Shown here piece by piece: positions 6,658 to 63,607 of a stretch of DNA of 64,000 bases. The notes beneath the pieces were generated by a model. It ran no database searches and was not told the origin of the DNA. It saw only the letters and a list, made by a program, of their open reading frames with translations. This DNA comes from Desulforamulus hydrothermalis Lam5 = DSM 18033 (GTDB taxonomy: Bacteria > Bacillota > Desulfotomaculia > Desulfotomaculales > Desulfotomaculaceae). Position 1 is the first letter of the stretch. Every line of letters starts with the position of its first letter. The stretch spans positions 266 to 64,265 of the forward strand of contig NZ_CAOS01000011.1 of NCBI RefSeq assembly GCF_000315365.1, read 5' to 3'. A program made the position numbers and the translations under genes.

Positions 6658-6960
6658 ACGCCTGCTTAGGCAGGCGGCAGAGTGTCGACAAACATTATCG
6701 GTGGTTTATGATCCCCTTTGGCTCCGGTCTACGCACCGACAGCACTATGATTCGCTCCGGTCGCCCTTGAGGTCGCCTCAAACGGGCCGTCCTGGCCCGG
6801 TTCGGCTGGCGCCCACGTCCTGTGGGCGCCACCACAATGGCTCCTTTCGCTCATCAAGTGCTGTGACCGGTGCTTCGACAAGTCGCCGACAGGGGATCAT
6901 AAAACCACCTCACTTTTTTTACACCTTTGTCTACAGTCTGACGCCTGTTTAGGCAGGCGG
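6658..6960 (+). mobile_element. MITE-like terminator-associated element, copy A (full length)
   Basis: The core (6678-6940, 263 bases) begins CAGAGTGTCGACAAAC and ends CTACAGTCTG. It is bracketed by two 20-base direct repeats, 6658-6677 and 6941-6960, that differ at one base and each contain the hairpin GCCTGCTTAGGCAGGC or GCCTGTTTAGGCAGGC. Inside are perfect hairpins (GGCGCCCAC 6808-6816 with GTGGGCGCC 6822-6830; GGGCC 6784-6788 with GGCCC 6794-6798) and long imperfect terminal inverted repeats, GGTGGTTTATGATCCCC at left answering GGGGATCATAAAACCACC at right. About 87% or more of the core is the same as copy B by eye. No convincing gene inside. It sits at the 3' end of the nuo operon. Confidence 0.8.
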
Positions 6961-17893: not shown

Positions 17894-17984
17894 TAATAAT
17901 TAATTCTTTCAGAGTGTCGCCAAAGGTTATCGTGGGTTGATATGTTTTACAACCTTTGTCAACAGTCTTAGTTATTTATTCTTT
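17894..17984 (+). mobile_element. MITE-like element, copy D (minimal)
   Basis: A 59-base core (17910-17968) has only the two ends: CAGAGTGTCGCCAAAGGTTA at left and TTTTACAACCTTTGTCAACA then GTCT at right, which pair with each other. It is bracketed by AT-rich 16-base direct repeats, 17894-17909 and 17969-17984, that match at 13 of 16 positions and share ATTCTTT. Unlike copies A-C the flank is not a hairpin. It sits between the start of rnhB and the end of rbgA. Confidence 0.6.
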
Positions 17985-28191: not shown

Positions 28192-28375
28192 AAGTGAGAA
28201 CAGCTATTTCTCACTTCAGAGTGTCGACAAACATCATCGGTGGTTTATGATCCCCTCGCTCATCAAGTGCTGTGACCGGTACTTCGGCAAGTTGACCACA
28301 GGGGATCATAAAACCACCTACTTTGTTTTACAACCTTTGCCTGCAGTCTGAAGTGAGAATAGTTATTTCTCACTT
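28192..28375 (+). mobile_element. MITE-like element, copy C (internally deleted)
   Basis: A 134-base core (28217-28350) from CAGAGTGTCGACAAACATCA to CTGCAGTCTG. Compared with copies A and B it lacks about 130 internal bases between GATCCCC and TCGCTCATCAAG. It is flanked by 25-base direct repeats, 28192-28216 and 28351-28375, that match at 23 of 25 positions and each form the hairpin GTGAGAA...TTCTCAC. The two differences are C-to-T in the loop. It lies after the mtaD stop on the minus strand. Confidence 0.8.
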
Positions 28376-33674: not shown

Positions 33675-33987
33675 AAACACCCCCGTTAAGGGGTGTTTCA
33701 GAGTGTCGACGAACAGTATCGGCGGTTTATGATCCCCTTTGGCTCCGGTCTACGCACCGACAGCACTATGATTCGCTACGGTCGCCCTTGGGGTCGCCTC
33801 AAACGGCCCCTCCTGGCCCGGTTCGGCTGGCGCCCACATCCTGTGGGCGCCCCCCCAATGGCTCCTTTCGCTCATCAAGTGCTGTTACCGGTGCTTCGAC
33901 AAATCGCCGACAGGGGATCACAAAACCGCCTCATTTTGTTTTGCAACCTTTGTCTACAGTCTGAAACACCCCCGTTAAGGGGTGTTT
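33675..33987 (+). mobile_element. MITE-like terminator-associated element, copy B (full length)
   Basis: The core (33699-33963, 265 bases) begins CAGAGTGTCGACGAACAGTA and ends TGTCTACAGTCTG. It is flanked by two identical 24-base direct repeats (33675-33698 and 33964-33987), each a hairpin with the arms AAACACCCC and GGGGTGTTT. The core contains GGCGCCCAC-ATCCT-GTGGGCGCC and the long inverted ends GGCGGTTTATGATCCCC / GGGGATCACAAAACCGCC. Further inside, GCACCGACAGCAC at left answers GTGCTGTTACCGGTGC at right. No coding potential is evident. It lies four bases after the DUF1540 gene stop (minus strand). Confidence 0.85.
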
Positions 33988-52089: not shown

Positions 52090-52118
52090 AGGTCAGACCT
52101 CCACAGGGGGTCTGACCT
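52090..52118. terminator. Hairpin after the DRTGG gene
   Basis: AGGTCAGACC (52090-52099) and GGTCTGACCT (52109-52118) form a strong stem. It lies six bases after the stop. No T run follows on the + strand, but a MITE-like remnant begins right after, so the original tail was probably displaced. Confidence 0.65.
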
Positions 52119-52212
52119 CATAGTGTCAAAAGCTTTTGTCGGTGTTTTAAATCCCTTTAGCTTCGGTCAACGCACCAACAGCACGATGCTTCTTTGTTTT
52201 TACAACCTTCTG
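52119..52212 (+). mobile_element. MITE-like element, copy E (decayed)
   Basis: CATAGTGTCAAAAGCTTTTG resembles the left end of copies A-C; GCTTCGGTCAACGCACCAAC corresponds to GCTCCGGTCTACGCACCGAC in them; and TTTTTACAACCTTCTGCTA is like the right end. The right half is missing. The left flank is the hairpin at 52090-52118 but no second copy of it follows, because the core runs into the next gene's stop. Confidence 0.55.
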
Positions 52213-63302: not shown

Positions 63303-63607
63303 CATGATAAAGGACATCGAGAAACCCAGCGAAGGGGAAAAGTAATTTAAGCCTGTTCTTTCAGAGAGCCGGTGGGTGGTGCGAACCGGCAGAGGGTTTA
63401 AGTGAATTCCTCCCCGGAGGGGATCCGCCGAAAAACAGCGAGACAGATAAAAGAGCTGCCAGTAGGTGGATACGGGAAGACACCCGTTATAACAAATGAG
63501 TGGGTCAGAAGTTTTTAGTTTCTGACCAACAAGGGTGGCAACGCGGGAGCATAACCTCTCGTCCCTAATGGACTATCATCCGTTAGGGGCGGGAGGTTTT
63601 TATATTT
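63303..63607 (+). ncRNA. T-box riboswitch, probably serine-specific
   Basis: A 5' leader of about 300 bases with Stem I ('GAGAAACCCAGCGAAGGGG' to 'CTCCCCGGAG'), the apical GCCGGTGGGTGGTGCGAACC region, and the T-box itself, AAGGGTGGCAACGCGGG (63531-63547). The terminator is CCTCTCGTCCCTAA (63555-63568) with TTAGGGGCGGGAGG (63583-63596) and a T tail. The specifier loop has GTGAATTCC: TCC (Ser, 63408-63410) or TTC (Phe, 63407-63409). The T-box UGGC would pair with a tRNA ending GCCA, so a G73 discriminator as in tRNA-Ser and not the A73 of tRNA-Phe; this favours Ser. Confidence 0.92.

Follow-up and report, generated by a model that had tools for sequence, protein, structure and literature searches.

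Two identical 24-bp hairpins bracket a 265-bp element at positions 33675-33987 of the window, the 64,000-nucleotide stretch of the Desulforamulus hydrothermalis Lam5 genome (2.69 Mb, 16 contigs) that we analysed, and the locus raises the question of how the same hairpin came to stand on both sides. The original prediction was that a family of non-coding mobile elements inserts into hairpins and thereby duplicates them. This answer was borne out by the number of copies with locus-specific, matched hairpins and by the syntenic sites of D. putei, where the element was absent at 6/6 and mostly one hairpin was present (4/6). Transposase-bearing elements whose ends are of the same kind duplicate hairpins in the same way, which adds further support.

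The loci of the window

The element at 33699-33963 encodes no transposase, and together with its hairpins it folded far more strongly than shuffled sequence (z = -10.8, RNA parameters). The bracket at 6658-6960 is, as predicted, a different 20-bp hairpin (19/20), and that at 28192-28375 is a third one of 25 bp (23/25). At 17894-17984 the mini-copy and its AT-rich bracket were recovered, but the match given earlier as 13/16 came to 12/15 aligned positions, within the control range. Common ends had been described for all five loci and hold for only four, because 52119-52212 is decayed and lacks an intact right end. An ORF 3' end adjoined 5/5 loci, where 4/5 had been placed at gene 3' ends (Table 1). 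Elsewhere in the window, the non-coding stretch 989-1193 matched several places in D. putei (G001) and in genomes G003 and G008 at 82-92% identity; it is possibly another interspersed repeat.

Table 1. Features of the window (strand of an element is that of its TwoAYGGAY RNA).
Feature	Position	Strand	Remarks
Duplicated 24-bp target hairpin, left copy	33675-33698	.	Identical to 33964-33987; single such hairpin at syntenic empty D. putei site
265-bp MITE	33699-33963	-	Ends CAGAGTGTCGAC...CTACAGTCTG
TwoAYGGAY RNA (RF01731), element core	33747-33901	-	52.5 bits, gathering score 43
Duplicated 24-bp hairpin, right copy	33964-33987	.	Identical to left copy
Second locus, left hairpin copy	6658-6677	.	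19/20 vs 6941-6960; one hairpin at syntenic D. putei site
Second locus, 263-bp MITE	6678-6940	-	
Second locus, TwoAYGGAY RNA (RF01731)	6726-6880	-	51.9 bits
Second locus, right hairpin copy	6941-6960	.	
Third locus, left hairpin copy	28192-28216	.	23/25 vs 28351-28375; one hairpin at syntenic D. putei site
Third locus, 134-bp internally deleted MITE	28217-28350	-	Lacks full TwoAYGGAY core; RF01731 match above gathering score absent
Third locus, right hairpin copy	28351-28375	.	
60-bp mini-copy, both ends	17910-17969	-	AT-rich bracket, non-hairpin, not above control
Decayed copy	52119-52212	-	Hairpin 52090-52118 on left only; right end not intact
T-box leader (RF00230)	63320-63569		144.9 bits

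Most copies in the host genome carry locus-specific repeats

Searching the host genome with one copy as the query gave at least 40 long placements at 91-100% identity; these are the placements scored among 164 first-look candidates, and more exist. The left-end pattern (up to 3 mismatches) occurred at 67 genomic places, and the reversed control pattern at 0. Pairing of ends by script at the fetched places distinguished 78 unique copies, of which 71 were two-ended and entered the flank tests; the other 7 had no genuine right end and were set aside. Copy lengths ranged from 42 to 272 bp, and most were 262-266 bp.

As a control, the left flank of each copy was compared with the right flank of every other (71 × 70 mismatched pairs). 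A locus-specific flanking direct repeat exceeded the 99.9th percentile of this control in 62/71 copies and its maximum in 57/71. The repeats were mostly a complete terminator-like hairpin: the predicted hairpin energy was below -8 kcal/mol in 57/71 left flanks and 60/71 right flanks. Among shuffled flanks 8.2% passed this threshold, and among distal flank stretches 1%. The duplication was flush and gapless (at least 90% identity, 12-29 bp) at 35 copies, and the flanks of the remaining copies of the 62 matched with mismatches, offsets or gaps. The nine copies below the threshold include L032 (158 bp) and the reverse-strand row of L045 (256 bp), both apparently mis-paired by the script; the other seven are L098, L225 and the five copies away from hairpins described below.

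One alternative is that the flanking hairpins are the element's own parts, like terminators borne by an IS. Most copies are indeed hairpin-flanked, and in the accessible text of PMC2965389 the terminators by ISBma2 transposase genes are taken as intrinsic to the IS. However, the hairpin sequence varies from locus to locus but agrees on the two sides of one element, with 62/71 pairs above the mismatched ones, and empty sites carry one hairpin. The flank controls thus refute this reading unless hairpins were swapped at each move, and we give it almost no credence.

Several copies departed from the common pattern. At L098 (G000:C8:120500-124000) and L225 (G000:C10:4500-5800), the second hairpin, as read from the flanks, is apparently an inverted copy of the first, reflecting either later inversion of the palindrome or a different joining event. 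Five of the 71 copies were not at hairpins (L031, L215, L058, one of the two L107 copies, and L051). Two of them, L031 (G000:C3:205933) and L215 (G000:C9, about 81188), had flanking repeats of 7 and 8 bp and no hairpin, so insertion away from a hairpin may perhaps yield a short duplication. At L020 (G000:C10:43685-43948) and L002 (G000:C8:85224-85486), the paired hairpins differ, yet both remain hairpins; the stem change at L020 looks compensatory, hinting that both hairpin copies are under constraint. Copies of only 42-60 bp also occurred at hairpins, which shows that the core is dispensable for end recognition unless these copies shrank after insertion. The 111-124 bp copies with a common deletion junction were rejected as proof that core-less copies move: short direct repeats border the junction, and the same deletion could therefore have arisen more than once.

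Sites without the element in D. putei

D. putei DSM 12395, of the same genus, shares synteny with the window, the long blocks being 76-83% identical. The sites corresponding to 33675 and 28192 contained one hairpin and no element, and those corresponding to 6658 and G000:C13:157292 likewise lacked the element and had one hairpin, whose sequence had diverged. At the 17894 site a different terminator was present, and at the C13:154057 site there was no clear hairpin, again with no element at either. Two hairpins without an element were found at none of the six D. putei sites examined. The species has a MITE copy of its own (L284). A single hairpin at most of the element-free sites, together with locus-matched repeats, therefore establishes insertion with duplication of the target hairpin.

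The ends belong to IS1182-family elements

The end pattern CAGASTGTMGACAAA was present in 22 of the 200 genomes searched, the host genome included. In D. putei, and in many bacteria besides, ends of this kind enclose transposase genes of the IS1182 family. The D. putei IS (contig NZ_FQUY01000014.1) is 1604 bp long, with ends CAGACTGTCGACAAA / CAGACTGTAGACAAA and one 490-aa ORF. Its transposase scored 456.2 bits against NCBIfam NF033551 (cut-off 270), and a second scanned transposase with these ends scored 464.9 bits; the D. putei protein matched Pfam DDE_Tnp_1_6, DUF772 and DDE_Tnp_1. The CAGASTGTMGACAAA ends are common to the MITEs and to the IS1182 elements found in D. putei, G008 and G149. 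Both the terminal inverted repeats and the type of target duplication agree with an IS1182 partner and support placing the element among the IS1182-family MITEs.

No close relative of the D. putei transposase was found in the host genome, where the best match had 25% local identity (E = 3e-4), so the partner has been lost, is unassembled or lies elsewhere. The MITE and the D. putei IS have only about 15-17 terminal bases in common, so the MITE did not arise from that IS through a simple internal deletion.

Another transposase might move the MITE, either one of two DUF772 elements of the host or an IS1202-type element. The host genome does hold two DUF772 transposases, and the original prediction had attributed long duplications to some IS1202-type elements. 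Against this, the two DUF772 elements have no MITE-like ends (up to 3 mismatches), and their transposases share 21-25% local identity with the D. putei enzyme, while the enzymes found inside elements with MITE-like ends score as IS1182 (456 bits against NF033551). No IS1202 model was among the matches of the two scanned transposases, in a model library that may hold none. We rejected both candidates and regard a partner of either kind as very unlikely. Separately, at L061 (G000:C6:4660-7875) a CRISPR-like repeat array contains a DUF772 transposase ORF with GAGCCAATTGCAAAA-like ends.

Most IS1182 insertions with these ends in other genomes show duplicated hairpins

A scan of GTDB genomes gave 344 relatives of the transposase, of which the best 80 were kept. 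These 80 loci and 20 fetched stretches yielded 59 distinct insertions with both ends and enough flank, after exclusion of contig-end cut-offs, unrecognisable ends, repeats of another insertion and N-containing stretches; some of the 59 come from one genome (e.g. Romboutsia timonensis, Bacillus massiliglaciei, G149). The results showed a gapless, hairpin-like duplication of 19-35 bp with at least 90% identity (most 100%) in 41/59 insertions. A matching duplication was absent in the other 18, of which 12 had two hairpins of different sequence, one per side and each below -8 kcal/mol, and 6 had no such pair. Mismatched pairs like these 12 would be expected after recombination between copies or from assembly joins.

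Because this end type was required, the test is limited to this subgroup of IS1182. Some IS1182 members are entered in ISfinder with long direct repeats. Other members, ISPse1 (PMC3281130) and ISCaa15 (PMC3196728), are tabulated with 4-bp repeats, and hairpin duplication is thus not a trait of the whole family.

These insertions also bear on the possibility that tandem terminators came first, with the element between them, or that gene conversion later equalised the hairpins. Some pairs, such as L002 and L020, agree in the stem and differ in the loop, as this would allow. Such an origin is nevertheless highly improbable in view of the one hairpin at 4/6 D. putei sites and of flush duplications at that identity in 41/59 IS insertions from many genomes.

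The duplication is centred on the hairpin

Duplication and best hairpin had centres no more than 1 bp apart in 40/41 IS insertions and 33/35 MITEs. With a simpler dyad score, 37/41 and 29/35 were centred, compared with about 5% of shuffled sites. The duplication ended a median of 1 bp beyond the outermost G:C pair on both sides (quartiles 1-2 for IS, 0-3 for MITEs), and pairing often ran 1-2 bases past it into A/T tracts (0.73 and 0.71 of IS sites). The correlation of duplication length with the span of the G:C stem was only moderate (Spearman 0.46 for IS, 0.41 for MITEs).

The same geometry could arise if the palindrome were read as linear duplex, by a symmetric dimer that binds both half-sites and cuts with flexible spacing, with no hairpin or cruciform. 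Dyad centring is equally expected from a symmetric dimer, the merely moderate stem-span correlation fits it, and 8/41 IS duplications stop within a longer palindrome, which counts against a strict rule that the duplication ends at the hairpin foot. On the other side, the target flanks are alike in structure and not in sequence, with the proviso that a G+C-rich stem with an A/T foot may itself be a motif, and a spread of 19-35 bp is wide for a rigid dimer on linear DNA. We consider the linear-duplex dimer rather unlikely.

The core is the TwoAYGGAY RNA

The core of full-length copies corresponds to Rfam TwoAYGGAY (RF01731), which was detected on the minus strand of the two full-length copies of the window at 52.5 and 51.9 bits (threshold 43). 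RF01731 occurred in 32 of 150 genomes, in 26 of them above the threshold (host genome included). Among 45 TwoAYGGAY loci, which include at least two same-place pairs (L237/L077 and L238/L085), IS1182-like ends stood on both sides at 8: L234, the host genome's own, and seven in six other genomes (L076, L232, L236, L240, L245, L247 and L253). Similar hairpins flanked L076, L232, L236, L240 and L247 on both sides, those at L245 differed, and L253 had no matching ones. Of the remaining loci, 2 could not be measured and 35 did not have such ends on both sides, which rules out that TwoAYGGAY is always cargo of IS1182-like elements and indicates that it also rides other carriers. At L065-L068, L072-L074, L079, L080, L082, L083, L085, L086, L233, L235 and L243, TwoAYGGAY-like cores lie in long inverted repeats that differ in sequence and have no IS1182 ends; these loci of relatives are probably other mobile carriers of TwoAYGGAY. 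The accessible text of PMC2864571 and PMC4333381 describes TwoAYGGAY as an RNA of unknown function for which CsrA binding has been proposed, and the host genome has a csrA gene.

Insertion at gene ends and the T-run

With a crude ORF caller, an ORF 3' end lay within 200 bp of 61/71 copies, 3/71 copies were between divergent ORFs and 5/71 were inside an ORF. Orientation relative to tandem genes was 17 against 27, too unconvincing for an orientation bias. Inner hairpin and element were separated by a T-run in 0/71 copies, whichever side was taken, and a T-run followed a distal hairpin in 43/71. For each transcription direction, only the distal hairpin would thus keep its T-run, because the duplication ends at the hairpin foot. 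The prediction that one terminator would be left on each side is therefore probably wrong, in that the two sides are unlikely both to retain a functional one. From sequence, we infer that transcription would pass the inner hairpin, read the element and stop at the distal copy. A caution for such read-through comes from an ISCbo5 copy without a hairpin, for which, in the accessible text of PMC3098183, RT-PCR showed no transcript fused with the upstream gene.

Discussion

We propose that the MITE is moved in trans by an IS1182-family DDE transposase and that its hairpin target is copied whole by gap repair, and we put the probability of this reading at about 80%. Comparison among genomes and copies shows mobility, hairpin duplication, like ends on IS1182 elements, dyad centring and the lack of an inner T-run. 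The transposase would recognise the MITE ends, for which the smallest copies (42-60 bp) would set an upper limit on the sequence needed, and would mobilise the MITE in trans. Its targets would be palindromes able to form hairpins, for the most part the intrinsic terminators of genes at their 3' ends, presumably extruded as hairpins. The 3' ends of the element would most likely be joined symmetrically to the hairpin's 5' foot on each strand, and gap repair would copy the whole hairpin, so that the target duplication would be the hairpin, with a site-dependent length (19-35 bp among the IS insertions). The duplication would leave out the T-run, and the element should thus be transcribed within the host 3' UTR, up to a stop at the distal hairpin.

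More tentatively, a subgroup of DDE transposases may size its duplication by DNA secondary structure, and TwoAYGGAY may be a selfish 3' UTR passenger, with every full-length copy contributing CsrA-type GGA loops to the transcriptome. In this case, insertion would part the inner hairpin from its T-run, and the element would be co-transcribed with the upstream gene.

Targeting of hairpins or terminators by IS1182 relatives has already been published for ISCbo5 (PMC3098183) and TnSha1 (PMC4923244), as far as the accessible text of these papers goes. The ISCbo5/ISBma2-like elements of Clostridium group III, also IS1182, resemble ours in lying at hairpin sites at gene ends, all but one, which were thought to be stop signals; unlike here, the accessible text of PMC3098183 does not state hairpin duplication and contains no MITE and no TwoAYGGAY. 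IS1272/TnSha1 (IS1182) likewise target inverted repeats and terminators without a sequence consensus, but the hairpin is reportedly deleted or replaced without duplication (accessible text of PMC5678879 and PMC4923244). Replacement of the IS1272 type was rejected for the present element, most copies of which have a hairpin on both sides. In the accessible part of PMC5678879, whole-hairpin duplication is drawn as a hypothetical pathway b, and IS1272 itself replaces the hairpin.

The element core scores above the gathering score of the RF01731 model, whereas mobility is unmentioned in the accessible text of PMC2864571 and PMC4333381. Bacterial MITEs, as reviewed in PMC10969869, are similarly short and non-coding, with terminal inverted repeats and a structured transcript; neither IS1182 nor TwoAYGGAY occurs in the accessible text of that review. 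The 'mobile attenuators' of PMC2965389 are also terminators beside ISBma2-type and other transposase genes, but they are read in its accessible text as intrinsic IS terminators, whereas in the IS1182 subgroup studied here they look like duplicated host targets. Within the open-licence literature searched, we found neither whole-hairpin duplication as an observed result nor TwoAYGGAY described as mobile. As far as that literature shows, the large-scale evidence for hairpin duplication and the occurrence of TwoAYGGAY as cargo of such elements are new.

These findings give comparative support for a structure-determined target duplication, a pathway so far drawn only as an IS1182 hypothesis in the literature covered, and suggest that reports of intrinsic terminators by IS1182-type elements be re-read. 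As mobile cargo, the orphan RNA TwoAYGGAY gains a biological context, one relevant to its proposed role as a CsrA-binding RNA of the host. Because the distal terminator survives, the results also suggest that mobile DNA could settle at gene ends with little harm.
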